A stretch of DNA of 47,328 nucleotides, from the IMG/VR virus record IMGVR_UViG_3300035210_000052, positions 1 through 47,328 of that record; one strand, 5' to 3'. Below, piece by piece: positions 629-46,778 of this stretch. The DNA is from a virus. Each line of letters starts with the position of its first letter. The first letter of the stretch is position 1. The translations under genes and the position numbers were made by a program. The notes beneath the pieces are model-generated. The model made no database searches. It saw only the letters and a program-made list of their open reading frames with translations, and was not told where the DNA came from.

Positions 629-703
629 CGCGGGGTGTTGTAAAGGAAACCTGCCGGCCTCATAAGCCGGGCGATGCGGGTTCGATTCCCGCCCCCGCCA
701 CCA
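629..703 (+). tRNA. tRNA-Met (CAU), initiator-like
   Basis: A 75-nt cloverleaf can be drawn: acceptor CGCGGGG (629-635) against CCCCGCC, anticodon stem CCGGC/GCCGG around loop CTCATAA, a 5-nt variable region, T arm GCGGG-TTCGATT-CCCGC, discriminator A and encoded CCA. The acceptor leaves positions 1 and 72 unpaired (C and C), as bacterial initiator tRNAs do (C1 with A72), and the 5' CGCGGGG equals the E. coli initiator acceptor. Two G-C pairs of the initiator anticodon stem are kept and the third is reversed. The D stem is poor, with only two good pairs. It could be a divergent initiator or a decayed tRNA-Met. Confidence 0.8.
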
Positions 704-704
704 A

Positions 705-775
705 ATGCCCGAAGTGTTATGGCAGCACAGCGGTCTCCAAAACCGTTAGCCGAGGTTCGACTCCTCGCGGGCGTG
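705..775 (+). tRNA. tRNA-Trp (CCA)
   Basis: A regular cloverleaf: acceptor ATGCCCG/CGGGCGT with one G-T wobble, D stem GTGT/GCAC, anticodon stem GCGGT/ACCGT with loop CTCCAAA (anticodon CCA), and T arm CGAGG-TTCGACT-CCTCG. Discriminator is G, as usual for bacterial tRNA-Trp. The 3' CCA is not encoded, unlike the neighbour at 629-703 from which it is separated by one base, so the two are probably processed from one transcript. Confidence 0.9.
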
Positions 776-779
776 CGTG

Positions 780-813
780 TTCAGATTCACAAATGATTCA
801 TGAATCGTGAACA
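780..813 (+). other. Hairpin between tRNA-Trp and tmRNA-like RNA
   Basis: GTTCA-GATTCA pairs with TGAATC-TGAAC with one bulged G, enclosing an AT-rich loop. It sits between two stable RNA genes and could be a processing signal. It has no U-tract, so it is not an obvious terminator. Confidence 0.45.
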
Positions 814-816
814 GAA

Positions 817-896
817 GGGGCACCAAGGGTTCGACGGTGTGTTGAAATCCCGTGAAGGGACCGCACCGGAGGTGGGTTCGATTCCCACGTGCTCCA
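817..896 (+). ncRNA. Miniature tmRNA-like RNA (tRNA-like domain only)
   Basis: The ends match the tRNA-like domain of tmRNA. Acceptor GGGGCAC (817-823) pairs with GTGCTCC (889-895) and includes a G3-U70 wobble (819 and 893) with discriminator A896, the alanyl-tRNA synthetase identity signal used by tmRNA. A stem-less D region GGGTTCGACGG (827-837) matches the conserved tmRNA 5' motif, and the T arm is GTGGG-TTCGATT-CCCAC. In place of an anticodon arm a 5-bp helix (835-839 with 864-868) encloses a small hairpin TCCC-GTGAA-GGGA. Only about 34 nt separate D region and T arm, so there is no tag reading frame or pseudoknot set. The encoded tail is CCCA rather than CCA. A degenerate long-arm tRNA is the alternative. 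Confidence 0.6.
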
Positions 897-1015: not shown

Positions 1016-1546
1016 GTGAACGACGACTTCGACTTCGACGGCGACAACGCCAGTGAGTCTGACGGCATCAAGAGCCTGCGCAAGCAGGCGAAGGAACTGG
1101 CGAAGGTCAACGGCGAGCTGCAGTCGCAGCTCAAGGAAGCCCTCGCGGCGACGCGCAAGGCGTCGGTGAGCGAGACCCTTCGGGATCTCGGCGCCAACCC
1201 CAAGCTCGCTCGCTACATGCCGGCAGACGTCGATGCCAGCAAGGAGTCGATCGAGAAGTGGCTCGCCGATGATGGCGAGCTTTTCGGCTTCAAGCCCCAG
1301 GGCCAGGAGCCCGCAGGGGAGCAGCAGCAGAGTCCGGTCGCTCCGGGCGCACGCGCTGTCGCCCCTGCCGGGATTCCCCCGGCCATGGTCGAAGCGTTCA
1401 GCCGAGTCCAGAACCCCGAGTCGTTCGGGGCCCCGCCCACGCAGGGACTGGATTCGCAAGCCCTCGAACAGATGCGCTCCCTCGCCGAGCAGGCGGGTGG
1501 CAGCTTCCACCGGTTCGAGGACCTTCAGCGACATCTCTCAAGTTAA
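1016..1546 (+). CDS. Probable capsid scaffold protein
   Basis: Acidic, charged 176-residue protein starting at GTG with GGGAG five bases upstream. Residues about 15-50 form a charged heptad-like helix and the middle is rich in Pro, Gln and Ala, typical of scaffolds. It lies 11 bp before the major capsid gene, the usual place for a scaffold. No protease motif is visible, so any maturation protease must come from elsewhere or is absent. The function is inferred from position and composition, not from a recognised domain. Confidence 0.65.
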   Translation: MNDDFDFDGDNASESDGIKSLRKQAKELAKVNGELQSQLKEALAATRKASVSETLRDLGANPKLARYMPADVDASKESIEKWLADDGELFGFKPQGQEPAGEQQQSPVAPGARAVAPAGIPPAMVEAFSRVQNPESFGAPPTQGLDSQALEQMRSLAEQAGGSFHRFEDLQRHLSS

Positions 1547-1557
1547 GGAAAACGTAG

Positions 1558-2517
1558 GTGGCTAACCAGTTCACCAGCATTGCCACGACCCCGGGTCTGG
1601 CAGACAACACCGTCAAGACAATGTACGACTTCGCTTTCGGGTGGGCCCTGAACGCGACTCCCATCTACCGTCAGTTCGTGGACAAGCGTCCCGAGCAGGT
1701 CAACGGCCCGTCGAACAGCATCGTCCTCCAGAAGTACAACTACTTCGCGGACGCTGACGTCACTGCGGCTAAGACGCCGCTGACTGAAGAGCTGGACGTC
1801 GACTCCCGCAAGGTGCCCACGACCTCGACGGTCACCCTCGCGCTCAACGAGTACGGCGACGCGATCACCAAGACCCGCAAGCTCCAGCTCTTCAGCTTCG
1901 CGGACGTCGACATGGCGGCCGTGAACATCCTCTCGGATGAGTGCGCCAAGGTCATGGACGAACTGATCCAGGACACCATGCTCACCGGCACGCAGGTCAT
2001 TCGTGTGCAGGCGCGTGCGTCGACCGGTGCGGTCACCGCGACCGACAAGTTCGACTCGACCACGCTGCGGAAGACCGTTTCCAAGCTGCGCCGCAACCAG
2101 GCGCAGACCTGGGACGGTGGCCTCTACGGGGTGGGTGTTCACCCCGACGTCGTGCACGACCTCCGCGAGGAGACCGGGCAGGGCGGCTGGCTCCAGCCGC
2201 AGGAATACGGCGTGGCCCAGGACCGCCTGTGGCGGGGCGAGGTTGGCGTCTACCAGGGCTGCCGGTTCTTCGAGAACCCGCGCACCCGGAAGGCCGCTGA
2301 CGGCGCCGCTGGCGCCAACGTCTACCGGACCCACGTGATTGCCCGTGAGGCAATCGCCGAGAAGATGGCCGTTGAGCCCAACGTAGTCATTTCGCCGGTT
2401 GTGGATAAACTTTCTCGCTTCCGCAGCCTCGGTTGGTATCTGGTGGGTGGTTGGGCGCTCTACCGGCCCGAGGCGCTGGTTCGCATCGAGTCCAGCTCCA
2501 GCATTGCCCTGATCTGA
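1558..2517 (+). CDS. Major capsid protein, N4-gp56-like
   Basis: 319 residues from a GTG preceded by AAGGAAAA. The N-terminal pattern (VKTMYDFAFGWAL, then FVDKRPEQ) and the central LNEYGDAITKTRKLQLFSF followed by a DVD motif resemble the phage N4-gp56 family of major capsid proteins, whose fold is HK97-like. It would form the icosahedral shell with the preceding scaffold. A strong hairpin at 2530-2558 follows directly, which could let the capsid transcript accumulate. The position after terminase, portal and scaffold, read around the circle, agrees. Confidence 0.85.
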   Translation: MANQFTSIATTPGLADNTVKTMYDFAFGWALNATPIYRQFVDKRPEQVNGPSNSIVLQKYNYFADADVTAAKTPLTEELDVDSRKVPTTSTVTLALNEYGDAITKTRKLQLFSFADVDMAAVNILSDECAKVMDELIQDTMLTGTQVIRVQARASTGAVTATDKFDSTTLRKTVSKLRRNQAQTWDGGLYGVGVHPDVVHDLREETGQGGWLQPQEYGVAQDRLWRGEVGVYQGCRFFENPRTRKAADGAAGANVYRTHVIAREAIAEKMAVEPNVVISPVVDKLSRFRSLGWYLVGGWALYRPEALVRIESSSSIALI

Positions 2518-12865: not shown

Positions 12866-14056
12866 ATGGCATCCATACGCGAGTACGAGACCAAGGCCGG
12901 TAAGCGGTGGGAGGTCCGCTGGCGCGAGCCCGACGGGACGCCGACGGGACGCACGGCCAGCTCCGAGTCGGAGGCCAAGAGGATCAAGGCGGACGCGGAG
13001 CGGCGGGTGCGCAGGCTTCGAGCGGAGGCCGCCGACTCGGGCATCAACCCGACGGACGTCGGACTGATCGGCGCTGACTTCCGCACCGTGGCCCTGAAGC
13101 GCATGGAGCTTGTCCGAGACCCTGCAACCAGGAAGGCGAACCTGGCCCGACTGGAGAACCACGTCTTCCCGGTGATCGGCTCCAAGCCGATCACTATGGA
13201 CGCGAGTGATCTTGCGGCGTGCATCCTGTCCTGGTCCAGCCAAGCGCACAGCACGCAAGCCACGCTATTCCGAATCGTGTCGCCCGTCTTCACGTACGCA
13301 ATGGAGCGCCGTGCCATCACGAGCAATCCCTGCAAGACCGAAACCGTGAAGAACGTCCGACCCAAGGCGCCGAAGCGGCGGATCTACGCATGGTCCAACG
13401 AATGGGTTACCGGTGTCGTGAAGTCGATTCGCCCGGACCTTGCCATCTTCCCTCTACTGGCCGCATTCTGCGGCCTCCGTCAGGGGGAGATCTTCGGGCT
13501 GTCGCCCGATGACATCGTGATTAACGAATCGGGAGAGCGGGTCATCCGCGTCCGCCGGCAGATCTCAGATCAGGGTCGCCACATGTTCAAGGCACCGAAG
13601 CACCGTGGCGTCCAGGACGACCCCCGAGAGACCCCGTGCCCCGATTACGTATGGGAAGCCATTCAGGCTTACATGGAGGACTACCCGCCCTGCCCCGTGA
13701 CGCTGCCCTTCGCCAAGGGCGACGATTCGGAACCGCTCCCTCGGACGGTGCGATTGTTCCTGACGACCAATCGTCGCAACGCCTGGGACAGCGAAACATT
13801 CAACAATCATGTTTGGCATCCGGTGCGGGCTGCGGTCGGCATTCCGCAACTAAACGAGAACGGCAGCCATGCCCTGCGGCATTGGTTCGCTGCGACGCAA
13901 CTCACCAATGGAACGTCCGTCACTCAACTCGCCGCATTCCTTGGGCATTCGACGCCCGCATTCACAATGCAACAGTACGGTCGATACGCGAAGTCATCGG
14001 ACGTGGCAACGGCGGCCATGGATCGGCTGGCCCGGACTATGACCGACGGCGCTTAG
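12866..14056 (+). CDS. int: Tyrosine integrase
   Basis: 396 residues. An N-terminal AP2-like arm-binding part (REYETKAGKRWEVRWREPDG) leads to a core-binding SAM-like region (about 70-170) and a catalytic domain with R205 (CGLRQGE), a Lys in the KAPKHRG segment, H335-x-x-R338 (HALRH), H361 (LGHS) and Y371 as likely nucleophile. It would integrate phage DNA at an attB with host factor help. The putative attP lies directly upstream. Its last 20 bp overlap the excisionase-like gene on the other strand. Confidence 0.92.
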   Translation: MASIREYETKAGKRWEVRWREPDGTPTGRTASSESEAKRIKADAERRVRRLRAEAADSGINPTDVGLIGADFRTVALKRMELVRDPATRKANLARLENHVFPVIGSKPITMDASDLAACILSWSSQAHSTQATLFRIVSPVFTYAMERRAITSNPCKTETVKNVRPKAPKRRIYAWSNEWVTGVVKSIRPDLAIFPLLAAFCGLRQGEIFGLSPDDIVINESGERVIRVRRQISDQGRHMFKAPKHRGVQDDPRETPCPDYVWEAIQAYMEDYPPCPVTLPFAKGDDSEPLPRTVRLFLTTNRRNAWDSETFNNHVWHPVRAAVGIPQLNENGSHALRHWFAATQLTNGTSVTQLAAFLGHSTPAFTMQQYGRYAKSSDVATAAMDRLARTMTDGA

Positions 14057-33464: not shown

Positions 33465-33498
33465 ACCGGGCCGTTCCCCATCGATGCGAGGAGGCCGG

Positions 33499-35382
33499 GT
33501 GCCTCCGCTGAAGCTCACTGCCGCTGAAGCCAAGGCCGGTGTGATTGAGGCTGTCGCCAAGGGGTCGTCGGTCAACGCCGCGCTGGCCCTGGTGGGCAGG
33601 TCCATCAAGACGCACGAGAATTGGCGTTCCAGGGACCACGAGTACGCGCGGCTTCTCGATGAGGTGCGGCACTCGCGCAAGGTGGCCATCGACAAGGGCG
33701 CCCTCGCCGATGAGCTGGCGCTCACGTTCGCCGAATGGCGGCGGCGCTATCTGCGCCGCGAGACCTACCCGCACATGCAGAACCTGATCGACGTTGTTGA
33801 GGGGCGCGACCCGTCCTGGTTGCACCCGTCGATGACGTGGGAACCACGTCGGCGTAACCGCACCATCATTAACATCCCCCCGTACCACGCGAAGTCCCAG
33901 ACGCTCACCGTGGACTACGTCACCTACAAGCTCTGCCAGAACCCGAACTTCCGTGTCGTCATCGTGTCCAAGCGGCAGGAGCAGGCGAAGAAGTTCCTCG
34001 GGCAGATCCGTCAGCGCATGACCTCGAACCTCTTCACGGCTCTCCAGGTTGCCTTCGGCGGCACCGAGGGATTCAAGGGTGAGGGAACGGTCTGGCGGGC
34101 CAACATGCTCTACCTCGCCGGCAGGGATTCGGACGCGGCTGACGCGTCCATCGAAGCTCTTGGTCTCGGCGGGCAGATCTACGGAACACGCTCCGACCTG
34201 ATTCTTCTGGATGACTGCGTCGTTGGCTCCAACGCCAACGAGTACGAAAAGCAGATCAACTGGATGGAGTCCGAGGTAGAGAACCGTGTGTTCGACGGCT
34301 CCATCGTCATCATCGGTACCCGGCTTGCGCCGACCGATCTGTATGCGGAGCTGCGCAACGGGGACCGCTACCTGTCCGGGAAATCTCCATGGTCCTACCT
34401 GCGTATGCCCATGGTGCTGGAGACCGCAGGGAAGCCCGAAGACTGGGTCACGTTGTGGCCCAAGAGCCACATCCCGATGGACGAGAACGACGGGACCCCC
34501 GGGCCCGACGGCATGTTCGCGGCATGGGACGGCGTACGCGCCAACCAGACCCGCGACTCCAAGCCGCCGAAGACCTGGAACCTCGTTTACCAGCAGGCCG
34601 ACCAGGCCGAGGACGCGGTCTTCGACCCCAAGTGCGTGATGGGTTCGGTGGACCGGCGCAGAAAGCCGGGACCGCTACGTGCAGGTGGCTGGGGCCACCC
34701 GCGTAACGGCATGGAAGGCCAGTACGTCATCGCCTCGATGGACCCCGCCATGGCGGGGGACACCTTCACGTTGGTCGGAGCGGTCGACCGCAAGGACCAG
34801 ATGCGCCGGGTCATGAATGCATGGGTCGAAACTAGTCCGACCCCGGCATATATCCGCGAACTGATCGAGCGGGTCACCGACGAATACTCCGTCAATGAAT
34901 GGGTGATCGAGAAGAATGCGTTCCAGCTCTTCCTTGTTCACGACGAGGCCATTCAATCGTTCTGTCGTTCGCGCGGCGTGCGGATCACCGAGCACTATAC
35001 GTCTCGGAATAAGCAGGACCCTGACTTCGGGGTCGCGTCGCTCGCACCCCTCTTCGGATCGCTGCGTCGCATTCACGACGAATCTGGGCGTGCTGATCAT
35101 CAAGGGGACAATCTCTTCGACCTTCCTGATCCCGACCAAAGCCAGGGCGTCAAGAGTCTCATTGAGCAGCTCACGCTCTGGCAGCCGGGCAAGCAGGGCA
35201 AGCAACTGAAGATGGACGGGCCGATGGCCCTGTGGTTCTTCGAGCTGCGCGCCCGGGAAATCCTGGGACAGGGTCGGCAGAAGACCCAGCACTTCATGAA
35301 CAACCCGTACCTTTCACGGTCCGACGCTTCGCGCCGCACGGTGATTCCAATGGATTCATACCGGGAGGGCCGCCTTGGCTGA
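33499..35382 (+). CDS. terL: Terminase large subunit with fused N-terminal HTH
   Basis: About 627 residues. GTG at 33499 is preferred because AGGAGG lies just upstream; ATG at 33484 would add five residues. An N-terminal helix-turn-helix (SSVNAALALVGRSIKTHENW) looks like a small-terminase DNA-binding part. The ATPase has a Walker-A-like PPYHAKSQTL (about 127-136) and Walker B LILLDD (about 234-239). The nuclease domain starts near ASMDPAMAG with a metal-binding Asp. It pumps DNA through the portal and cuts it. No separate small subunit was found, so the fused HTH may replace it. Confidence 0.9.
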   Translation: MPPLKLTAAEAKAGVIEAVAKGSSVNAALALVGRSIKTHENWRSRDHEYARLLDEVRHSRKVAIDKGALADELALTFAEWRRRYLRRETYPHMQNLIDVVEGRDPSWLHPSMTWEPRRRNRTIINIPPYHAKSQTLTVDYVTYKLCQNPNFRVVIVSKRQEQAKKFLGQIRQRMTSNLFTALQVAFGGTEGFKGEGTVWRANMLYLAGRDSDAADASIEALGLGGQIYGTRSDLILLDDCVVGSNANEYEKQINWMESEVENRVFDGSIVIIGTRLAPTDLYAELRNGDRYLSGKSPWSYLRMPMVLETAGKPEDWVTLWPKSHIPMDENDGTPGPDGMFAAWDGVRANQTRDSKPPKTWNLVYQQADQAEDAVFDPKCVMGSVDRRRKPGPLRAGGWGHPRNGMEGQYVIASMDPAMAGDTFTLVGAVDRKDQMRRVMNAWVETSPTPAYIRELIERVTDEYSVNEWVIEKNAFQLFLVHDEAIQSFCRSRGVRITEHYTSRNKQDPDFGVASLAPLFGSLRRIHDESGRADHQGDNLFDLPDPDQSQGVKSLIEQLTLWQPGKQGKQLKMDGPMALWFFELRAREILGQGRQKTQHFMNNPYLSRSDASRRTVIPMDSYREGRLG

Positions 35383-37222
35383 GGATCGCCTCTACGGCAT
35401 TCCCGCACGTGTCAAGGCGCTTCGCGCCCGGTACCAGCACAAGGATGCCCGCAATAACGAGGTCCAGGCCGTCAGGCGTGGAGACTTCGAGGCCATTGCC
35501 CCTGACCTGTTCTCCGAGCAGTTCAGCCGGCCGATCGTCGCGAACCTCATCGACACCACCGCCCGGGACGTCGCCGCCGTCCTGGCGCCACTGCCGTCGT
35601 TCTCGTGTTCCTCGCCGAACATGTCCAGCGAACGCAGCAAGGACTTCGCCACCAAGCGCACGAGGATCGTGCGCAACTACCTGGACTTCTCTCAGGTGGA
35701 GTGGCAGATGCTCACCGGGGCGGACCAGTACAACTCCTACGGGATGATCGTCACCACGGTCACACCGGACTTCAAGAACAAGCAGCCGTACATCCTTTTC
35801 GAGTCCGCCGTCGGGGCCTACCCGGTGTGGGACCACAAGGGGGAGTGCACGGAGTTCGCCCGGGTCTACTACCGGGACTGGTTCGCCGTCGTGGCGGACT
35901 ACCCGAACGTGGAGAACGTTCGGAAGTCTTTCCCGCATGCCCTTGGTACGAACAACAAGGTCGAGATCGTCAAGTACATCAACAAGGATCGAATCCTTGT
36001 CTACATCCCGTCCATGGGTGACCTCATCCTGGAGGACATGCCCAACCCGATGAAGCGGTGCATCGTCGTGTGCACCCGCCGTCCCGGGCTGGACGACGAG
36101 ATTCGTGGCGCCTACGACGATGTCATCTGGGTGCAGTTCGCCCGGCACCGCCTTCAGGCTCTCTTGCTCGAAGGTGTCGACAAGGCCGTGCGTGCCCCGC
36201 TCGTCATCCCCGATGACGCCAACGAGGTGGCCCTCGGCCCGGATGCCGTCATTCGCACCCGTCAGGGTGCAGGGTCCGTGGCACGGGCCCGGCTGGACAT
36301 GCCTGCCCAGGCGTTCTCGGCGGTCGAACAGCTCAAGCAGGAGCAGATGCTCGGGGCTATGGCCCCGGAAGCGCGCTCCGGGTCGATGGACGCATCGGTC
36401 ATCACCGGTCGCGGTGTCCAGCAGCTCATGGCTGGGTTCTCCGCGCAGATCGCCGCCGCGCAGCTCGTCTTCCGTACGCATTTCAAGCGCGTGATCGAGC
36501 TGGCCTTCGCGATGGACGAGGAGCTGTGGCCCGACGAACCGAAGGACATCCGGGGCAACGACTCTGGCGTCCCGTACAGCTTCACGTACAGGGCTGCCAA
36601 GGACATCGACAACGACCACACCGTAGATATCTCCTACGGATTCGCCGCAGGGCTTGACCCCAACCGCGCACTGGTGTTCCTGCTACAGGCCGACGGTGCG
36701 GGATTGGTCAGCAAGGACTACGTCAGGCGGAACATCCCGGTCGACCTCAACGCGGTCGAAGAGGAACGCAAGATCTTCACCGAGCAGTCACGAGCTGCCT
36801 TGGTGCAGGCGTTCTCCGCCCTGACGCAGTCCATTCCTCAGCTCATTGCTGCCGGACAGGACGCCTCGCAGATCATTGCGACGCAGGCGAAGTTCATCTC
36901 GCTCATCCAGAAGGGCATGTCCGTAGAGGCAGCCGTGATGGAGGTGCTGAAGCCACCGGAGCCCCCGCCTGGCGCGTCGAGCCCGGGACCAGACCAGGCC
37001 GCTACCCCAGGTGGCCCCGGAGACGGTTCCGCGCCGGGCGGGCCCGGCGGAGCAGAAGGCTTCGGCCCCAACGGATTGCCGTCAGGCATGGCCCTCGGTC
37101 AGGCATCGCAGGGGCCGGGCGCACGCCCGCCCCTCCAGATGTTCATGGCCGGACTCAACGGTGCGGGCAACCCGAACATGGCAGCCGCAGTCAGCCGACA
37201 GAACCCGGTCGTCAACGGCTAG
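35375..37222 (+). CDS. Portal protein
   Basis: 615 residues from TTG overlapping the terminase stop. A mainly helical body with a wing-like beta region (FESAVGAYPVWDHKGECTEF), a long helix near GVQQLMAGFSAQIAAAQLVF, and a Pro/Gly-rich C-terminal tail (about 530-600). Position directly after terminase and before virion proteins, size and helical content match the phage portal family. It forms the dodecameric ring at one capsid vertex. Confidence 0.85.
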   Translation: MAEDRLYGIPARVKALRARYQHKDARNNEVQAVRRGDFEAIAPDLFSEQFSRPIVANLIDTTARDVAAVLAPLPSFSCSSPNMSSERSKDFATKRTRIVRNYLDFSQVEWQMLTGADQYNSYGMIVTTVTPDFKNKQPYILFESAVGAYPVWDHKGECTEFARVYYRDWFAVVADYPNVENVRKSFPHALGTNNKVEIVKYINKDRILVYIPSMGDLILEDMPNPMKRCIVVCTRRPGLDDEIRGAYDDVIWVQFARHRLQALLLEGVDKAVRAPLVIPDDANEVALGPDAVIRTRQGAGSVARARLDMPAQAFSAVEQLKQEQMLGAMAPEARSGSMDASVITGRGVQQLMAGFSAQIAAAQLVFRTHFKRVIELAFAMDEELWPDEPKDIRGNDSGVPYSFTYRAAKDIDNDHTVDISYGFAAGLDPNRALVFLLQADGAGLVSKDYVRRNIPVDLNAVEEERKIFTEQSRAALVQAFSALTQSIPQLIAAGQDASQIIATQAKFISLIQKGMSVEAAVMEVLKPPEPPPGASSPGPDQAATPGGPGDGSAPGGPGGAEGFGPNGLPSGMALGQASQGPGARPPLQMFMAGLNGAGNPNMAAAVSRQNPVVNG

Positions 37223-45653: not shown

Positions 45654-46778
45654 GTGGCCACCGGCAATACGACCAAGCCCGCGAACCCTTCTGCCGCATG
45701 GACCGCCGCGTACGACGCGGCTATCGCCCGCAAGAACACACCGGCCAACGCCGTAGTCATTGCGAACAAGACGCCTGCCGCTAAGCCCGGCACGGGCAGT
45801 GTGAACAGGCCCACGGTCGGCAGCGGCACCAGTCCCACGCCAAGCACCGGCCCGGACCCGTCGACCACGCCGGACACCAGTGCCACCGACGCGGAGTTGG
45901 CGCGCCTGCGCGCCGAGAACGACACCCTCAAGAAAAAGCAGGCCGACGACCAGGCCACCAAGGACGCGGCGAACCGCAACGCCTACGACCAGCTCACGCA
46001 ACTGTTCAGCAGCTACGGGCTGGACACGCTGTCCAGTCAGATCCTCAAGATGGTTCAGGACGGCGACGGTAGCGACACGATCTCGCTGAAGCTCCAGCAG
46101 ACCGCCGAATGGAAGGCGCGGTTCCCCGCGAACGACGCACGCCTGAAGGCGGGACTGTCCGTTCTCACCCCGGCCGAGTACATCTCGACCGAGCGGGCCT
46201 ACCGACAGGTCATGCAGGCCGCTGGCCTGCCGGTCGGGTTCTACGACAGCAACAACGACTTCACCAAGTTCTTGTCCCAGGACGTCAGTCCCACCGAGGT
46301 ACAGCAGCGCGTGCAGGCTGCCGGTGAAGCCATCAATAACGCTCCCAAGTCCACCCAGGATTACTTCAGTCAGTTCTACTCCCAAGGCGACCTCATTGCC
46401 TACGCGCTCGATCCCACCGTGGCCGAACCGCTCATCGAGCAGCGCATCAAGGCGGCCGAGGCCGCCGCTCTGGCCGCGCAGAACGGGTTCTCCGTGGGGC
46501 AGTCGACCGCCGAGGGTCTGGGCCGTCAGAACTTCACCCTGGCGCAGCTCAACCAGGGCATGGTCAATAGCGGGGTCGACGCCGCCAACGTCAGCAAGCT
46601 GAACAGCATCTACGGCCAGGACGTCACAAGTGACGACCTCGTGCAGTCGGTGTTCGGCACCAGTGCCGACGCCGTCAAGAAGGTGAACCGGCTGGCCAGT
46701 CAGGAACGTGCCGCATTCAGCGGTACCGCAGGCGCTACGGGCGCTGGCCTGTCCAGCAACGCTGGCGGGCAGTTCTAA
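45654..46778 (+). CDS. Virion protein with disordered N-terminus and coiled coil
   Basis: 374 residues from GTG with AGGGGGAGC upstream. Residues 1-80 are Pro, Thr and Ser-rich; about 80-108 (DAELARLRAENDTLKKKQAD) form a coiled coil; the remainder is helical with QSTAEGLGRQNFTLAQLNQG. It would be a late structural protein, perhaps part of the internal core. It ends 3-4 bp into the convergent leftward gene. Confidence 0.6.
   Translation: MATGNTTKPANPSAAWTAAYDAAIARKNTPANAVVIANKTPAAKPGTGSVNRPTVGSGTSPTPSTGPDPSTTPDTSATDAELARLRAENDTLKKKQADDQATKDAANRNAYDQLTQLFSSYGLDTLSSQILKMVQDGDGSDTISLKLQQTAEWKARFPANDARLKAGLSVLTPAEYISTERAYRQVMQAAGLPVGFYDSNNDFTKFLSQDVSPTEVQQRVQAAGEAINNAPKSTQDYFSQFYSQGDLIAYALDPTVAEPLIEQRIKAAEAAALAAQNGFSVGQSTAEGLGRQNFTLAQLNQGMVNSGVDAANVSKLNSIYGQDVTSDDLVQSVFGTSADAVKKVNRLASQERAAFSGTAGATGAGLSSNAGGQF

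Follow-up and report, generated by a model that had tools for sequence, protein, structure and literature searches.

Does the DNA at positions 817 to 896 of a viral genome encode a tmRNA reduced to its tRNA-like domain (TLD), and what would such an RNA do in an infected bacterium? We addressed this question in a 47,328-nt stretch of viral DNA, IMG/VR record IMGVR_UViG_3300035210_000052 (the window), where the original prediction, made from the sequence alone, had placed a tmRNA TLD without a message domain.

Anatomy and fold of the element

The RNA gene is 80 nt long, spans exactly 817-896 on the plus strand from G1 to A73, and has the sequence of a closed tmRNA TLD. Its parts are the following:

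817-896, plus strand: TLD-only (message-less) tmRNA gene, G1 to A73 (RF00023, 50.8 bits end to end; R1, 61.7 bits, E 1.3e-13)
817-823, plus strand: 5' strand of the acceptor stem, GGGGCAC, with G1-C72, G2-C71, and G3·U70 (sequence, fold, constancy of pairs 1 to 3)
824-835, plus strand: D region CAAGGGTTCGAC, without a stem, its 3' end being a tmRNA-type TTCGAC (sequence, fold, alignment)
836-867, plus strand: H2 helix (836-841/862-867) and cap hairpin (848-851/857-860), in the position of the anticodon arm (fold, covariation)
868-871, plus strand: linker GGAG, the variable region, of the tmRNA GGAC type (GGAN in 83 of 91 viral sequences)
872-888, plus strand: normal T arm, GTGGG-TTCGATT-CCCAC (sequence, fold, Rfam)
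889-896, plus strand: 3' strand of the acceptor stem, GTGCTCC, and discriminator A73 (sequence)

The G3·U70 wobble, the discriminator A, the stem-less D region, the helix replacing the anticodon arm, and the normal T arm were thus all confirmed to the base, in the sequence and with RNAfold. The acceptor stem has 7 bp (817-823/889-895). The H2 strands, GGTGTG and CGCACC, may be extended by a pair C835-G868 and are followed by an asymmetric, A-rich internal loop (842-847, TTGAAA) and by an apical hairpin, TCCC-GTGAA-GGGA (848-860), with a single C at 861 before the second H2 strand. An A-rich asymmetric internal loop (RAAA type, on the 5' side) recurs between H2 and the apical hairpin in all TLD-only sequences. 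Directly 3' of A73 the window reads CCC, so that CCA is not exactly encoded.

The two H2 strands lie only 20 nt apart (842-861), and we found no tag reading frame, resume codon, or stop codon in the window TLD. None of the pseudoknots PK1 to PK4 is present in the RNAfold fold of 817-896, and 80 nt leaves no room for them. The fold described above is both the minimum free energy and the centroid structure; its energy is not significant by itself (z, -1.27), and we dropped folding energy as a proof of the TLD. Since this energy is unremarkable, the case for the window TLD rests on homology and covariation.

Homology to tmRNA

The original prediction had proposed searches with the Rfam tmRNA model and with a TLD-only model, and both yielded matches. 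RF00023 matched 817-899 over model positions 1 to 374, and the score, 50.8 bits, exceeds its cut-off (47); both ends of tmRNA are therefore present and the middle, the message domain, is deleted. Filtered cmscan runs do not report this match. The same end-to-end alignment with a deleted message domain was obtained in 38/38 carrier records, in 35 of them above the cut-off. Covariance model R1, which we built from 21 other viral TLD sequences of equal length with the window excluded, gave 61.7 bits (E 1.3e-13) on the window. In the wider set, intact TLDs scored 44 to 93 bits and one degenerate copy scored 54, and the best control score was 30.8 bits (60 loci, 520 kb, four with full-length tmRNA genes). 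The mostly unrelated matches of a 15-mer scan served among these negative-control loci, and the top four control scores all fell in loci collected for full-length tmRNA genes. Together with the covariation of H2 reported below, these scores bear out the claim of a message-less tmRNA TLD at 817-896.

A permuted, two-piece tmRNA was ruled out: the window order runs from the 5' acceptor strand to the 3' acceptor strand, not 3' half first, and the permuted tmRNA model RF04321 gave weak partial matches of 14.5 to 18 bits on the window (cut-off, 47).

Relatives in viruses and cells

We then looked for relatives with two pattern scans. The first, of IMG/VR, specified the D region and the T arm, left the acceptor unspecified, and was followed by a structure filter; the second, which also fixed TCCA, covered IMG/VR and the GTDB genomes. 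After removal of false matches, the TLD-only element was present in at least 115 viral contigs among the matches listed (the window and Jojan60 included), and the viral set comprised at least 91 unique sequences in at least 73 groups at 85% identity. Six pattern matches (L057, L079, L090, L254, L268, and L284) were excluded by structure and are not TLDs.

Named carriers identified by blast are the Streptomyces phages GiJojo, LuckySocke, pSt2308, Shaeky, and Alone3, to which Stenotrophomonas virus Jojan60 is added. The intact TLDs of five of these phages are unannotated, none of the six named copies is labelled tmRNA, and the GiJojo and Jojan60 records have a hypothetical ORF drawn over the TLD. 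The Alone3 copy (L366:1501-1580) is degenerate, with TTCGAC changed to CACGAC and a disturbed T stem, in a local gene order identical to that of LuckySocke, whose copy is intact. Run over the TLD-only genes, ARAGORN called only four (L064, L112, L120, and L282), as "tmRNA" of 343 to 644 nt with wrong boundaries, and missed the other copies. Two tmRNA-type genes occur together in one phage record of 123,582 bases (G014), a full-length one at 77588-77979 and a TLD-only one at 46486-46567 (L174:1769-1850).

The pattern scan also found the element in at least 42 cellular contigs among the matches listed. Nostoc-type cyanobacteria have a conserved TLD-only tmRNA gene of 81 nt with G3·U70 (L345:4801-4884, minus strand; L332:4118-4201, plus strand; and others). 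It occurs in 20 of 145 genomes, in the family of Nostoc carneum NIES-2107, with a tRNA nearby and conserved downstream genes, one of them ribosomal L7/L12-like; all five of the genomes checked also contain a full-length tmRNA gene. The TLD-only gene of "Candidatus Poribacteria" (L299:861-946, L247, L251, L310, and others) has 86 to 88 nt and adjoins an opposite-strand pyridoxal-dependent decarboxylase gene, and full-length tmRNA was also found in two of the three genomes checked.

Covariation and conservation

The H2 helix lay outside the search patterns and the filter, except for a G at its second position. Its first pair is formed in 88 of 91 viral sequences versus 35 expected by shuffling, with GC, TA, AT, and CG at comparable frequency, and pairs 3 to 6 are formed in 71 to 81 of the 91 versus 38 to 41. 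When the 21 sequences of equal length are scored over the whole structure, 95.9% of the cells are paired; the covariation score reaches 0.644, compared with 0.173 for shuffled alignments and no more than 0.123 for slid ones. Apical loops of the TLD-only sequences differ in both sequence and size.

G3·U70 and A73 constitute the identity set of AlaRS. Acceptor pairs 1 to 3 are G-C, G-C, and G·U in 91/91 viral sequences. The scan with an unspecified acceptor contributed 37 unique sequences, and all of them (37/37) have G3·U70, while pairs 4 to 6 vary freely and take at least four forms across the full set. This pattern argues for selection for AlaRS recognition, and the invariant G3·U70 supports the view that TLD RNA would be charged with alanine. 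A73 was demanded by the later filter and not by that of the first scan, whose true TLDs all end in TCCA. The linker reads GGAN in 83 of the 91 viral sequences; TTCGAC and GGAC belong to the tmRNA elbow, with which SmpB makes contact.

Genomic neighborhood

The TLD lies in a short RNA gene cluster upstream of capsid genes, among the following features:

629-703, plus strand: tRNA-Met(CAT), in the RNA gene cluster (ARAGORN, Rfam)
705-776, plus strand: tRNA-Trp(CCA) (ARAGORN, Rfam)
778-812, plus strand: inverted repeat between tRNA-Trp and the TLD, a 12-bp hairpin with one bulge and an 11-nt loop (fold, -10.7 kcal/mol; z, -1.3), possibly a processing signal
1016-1546, plus strand: phrog_7813 gene, in the scaffolding-gene position of Streptomyces phages (profile match, synteny)
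1558-2517, plus strand: major capsid protein gene (phrog_1357, E 6e-60; 40 to 45% identity to Beephvirinae capsid proteins)

Other genes of the window encode a terminase (33484-35382) and a portal protein (35375-37222). Sequence comparison relates the phage of the window to the Beephvirinae of Streptomyces. In the Beephvirinae, a large tRNA array separates the homologue of window gene 45654-46778 from the scaffold and capsid genes, and in the window this position is occupied by tRNA-Met, tRNA-Trp, and the TLD. None of ten Beephvirinae relatives searched whole with R1 contained a TLD (the best score, ∼25 bits, was at a tRNA-Ala gene), and the TLD is thus dispensable in the window lineage, since the close named relatives tested are without it. 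Two diverged phages, L193 and L133, which we found by tblastn against the collected TLD loci, carry a TLD in exactly this position, flanked by the 45654 homologue and the scaffold/capsid genes; their capsid proteins are 43% and 23% identical to that of the window, respectively. The TLDs of the three phages are 64 to 71% identical, and their H2 strands differ yet still pair. A capsid-based search of IMG/VR found no relatives of the window.

We found no sigma-70-like promoter near the window TLD; transcription in carrier phages may start at promoters of another type or reach the TLD by read-through. A tRNA gene lies within 3 kb in only 30 of 120 viral TLD copies among the matches listed. No conserved partner gene is common to all TLD loci, with head genes recurring in a minority, and no SmpB gene was detected in the 38 carrier records searched, by a search whose control was positive.

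Proposed function

We propose, with a probability of roughly 60%, that the window RNA is a TLD-only tmRNA acting as a competitive decoy of the host tmRNA, which via host SmpB and EF-Tu would block trans-translation. The fold, homology, and conservation of the phage TLD and the lack of a phage SmpB gene are observed, and we infer the course from transcription onward. The transcript would be processed like a tRNA to 80 nt by RNase P/Z, a CCA end would presumably be added, and host AlaRS would charge the RNA with alanine through G3·U70 and A73. Host SmpB would serve it, as no SmpB gene is found in the 38 carrier records. With SmpB and EF-Tu·GTP, the RNA would be delivered to stalled ribosomes, or it would merely occupy SmpB, and it would block the tagging of truncated proteins during infection. 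Normal trans-translation should be impossible for TLD RNA because it has no message, tag, or stop codon. The TLDs of L193 and L133 at the corresponding site speak for the decoy, and the lack of a sigma-70-like promoter nearby and the absence of the TLD from the close named Beephvirinae tested speak against it.

By analogy, a decoy role has a reported experimental precedent in the DS6A-type RNA (PMC4131195, PMC11915505). The ssrA of phage DS6A is listed as "TLD only" (PMC4131195), and that paper states that a similar molecule strongly inhibits tmRNA whether chargeable or not, perhaps by titrating SmpB. PMC11915505 likewise reports that E. coli has its endogenous tmRNA inhibited by the form found in DS6A; both papers cite Mao et al. 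2009. Because inhibition is described in PMC4131195 as independent of chargeability, pure titration of SmpB, which would not require charging, leaves the invariant G3·U70 unexplained. The strict G3·U70 predicts that charging matters in nature, and ribosome entry or tag-less rescue should therefore be weighed against pure titration.

In such a tag-less rescue, the alanine-charged TLD would, with SmpB, take over the nascent peptide of a stalled ribosome, the ribosome would be freed for recycling by peptidyl drop-off or by other factors, and phage proteins would escape tagging and degradation. The strict G3·U70 fits a reaction that needs alanine, and mitochondrial tmRNAs have lost the tag yet retained SmpB and are suggested still to help with incomplete mRNAs (PMC11915505). 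We nevertheless find this reading doubtful: without a stop or resume codon, release would take an extra step, and PMC4131195 and PMC11915505 report inhibition by the DS6A-type RNA.

The window TLD lies directly upstream of the scaffold and capsid genes, as might an element that acts in cis on the capsid operon or serves its processing; the leader fold would then recruit RNase P/Z and set the 5' end or the level of the scaffold/capsid mRNA, with no action in trans. Downstream, the closest gene is one for a major head protein at ∼8 of 55 other loci, and capsid genes that are neighbors begin 48 to 300 nt away; upstream, the closest gene is one for a head maturation protease at ∼6 of 57 loci. At most loci, however, the neighbors are others (primase, helicase, portal, and tRNA arrays), and a pure processing signal would have no need of TTCGAC, a GGAC-type linker, or an invariant G3·U70, which makes this explanation quite unlikely.

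It is highly improbable that the element is a nonfunctional relic, be it a tmRNA copy in decay or a piece of host ssrA that integration left behind at an att site. Integration into ssrA genes is common, an integrase gene is present in the window (12866-14056), and the Alone3 copy is degenerate. Yet the integrase gene is 12 kb from the TLD, and at least 73 groups preserve both the pairing and G3·U70. An att core retains just the 3' portion of a gene, whereas the window TLD is closed, with both ends present and covarying, and the att/ssrA fragment was ruled out on this ground.

An aberrant tRNA-Ala, or another tRNA with an extended anticodon arm, shares G3·U70 and the T arm, and tRNA-Ala-type sequences score weakly with R1 (25 to 31 bits), but this reading was ruled out and its likelihood is negligible, as ARAGORN made no call at 817-896 (its calls there were the upstream tRNA-Met and tRNA-Trp only), no RF00005 match was listed even at E≤10 (lower-scoring overlaps within the clan go unlisted), and the fold has no 7-nt anticodon loop or D stem, with variable apical loops and a tmRNA-type TTCGAC in the D region.

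Relation to known tmRNAs

Standard bacterial tmRNA (RF00023) shares with the window element the acceptor with G3·U70 and A73, a GGnTTCGAC-type D region, the start of H2, a GGAC-type linker, and the T arm, but it has 350 to 400 nt with a tag frame, resume and stop codons, and pseudoknots, all of which the ∼80-nt window TLD lacks. The statement of the original prediction that known tmRNA is several times longer and carries a tag and pseudoknots is outdated, as message-less forms exist in mitochondria, some plastids, and phage DS6A (PMC4131195, PMC11915505). The message-less mitochondrial tmRNAs of jakobids and oomycetes (RF02544) and the ∼65-bp plastid tmRNAs of Mallomonadaceae have, like the window element, kept the TLD and lost the tag; these organellar forms are an inherited single system, usually permuted in mitochondria, whereas the hosts of phage TLDs normally also have a full tmRNA. 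Full-length tmRNAs of mycobacteriophages Bxz1 and Wildcat and of pelagic phage Melnitz (PMC9004378) are phage-borne ssrA genes as well, but they encode a tag and are in principle capable of trans-translation.

The "TLD only" ssrA of Mycobacterium phage DS6A is of the same kind as the window element, likened by description rather than by sequence, and differs in phage and host group. In a 2025 paper on a tmRNA database, only nine of 97,179 sequences are classed as "standard, no CDS" and a single phage, DS6A, is named (PMC11915505). DS6A is the sole phage example named in PMC4131195 and PMC11915505, whereas the present set is large and diverse. The kind of RNA was thus already known from DS6A, mitochondria, and plastids, and the window element is an additional member; what appears novel is its extent in phages. 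Among open-licence papers, we found no publication on a wide viral TLD-only family.

We give even odds to the broader proposition that a large viral RNA family, that of the TLD-only tmRNAs, has been overlooked, and that its members, selected for alanine charging and the use of host SmpB, act as a general phage countermeasure to bacterial trans-translation or a tag-free replacement of it. LuckySocke infects S. lividans, which makes deletion and complementation work on a TLD carrier practical. The breadth of the element, in at least 115 viral contigs, suggests that many phages interfere with the bacterial freeing of stalled ribosomes, and if phages widely carry an alanine-chargeable, message-less tmRNA, trans-translation would be a common target in infection.
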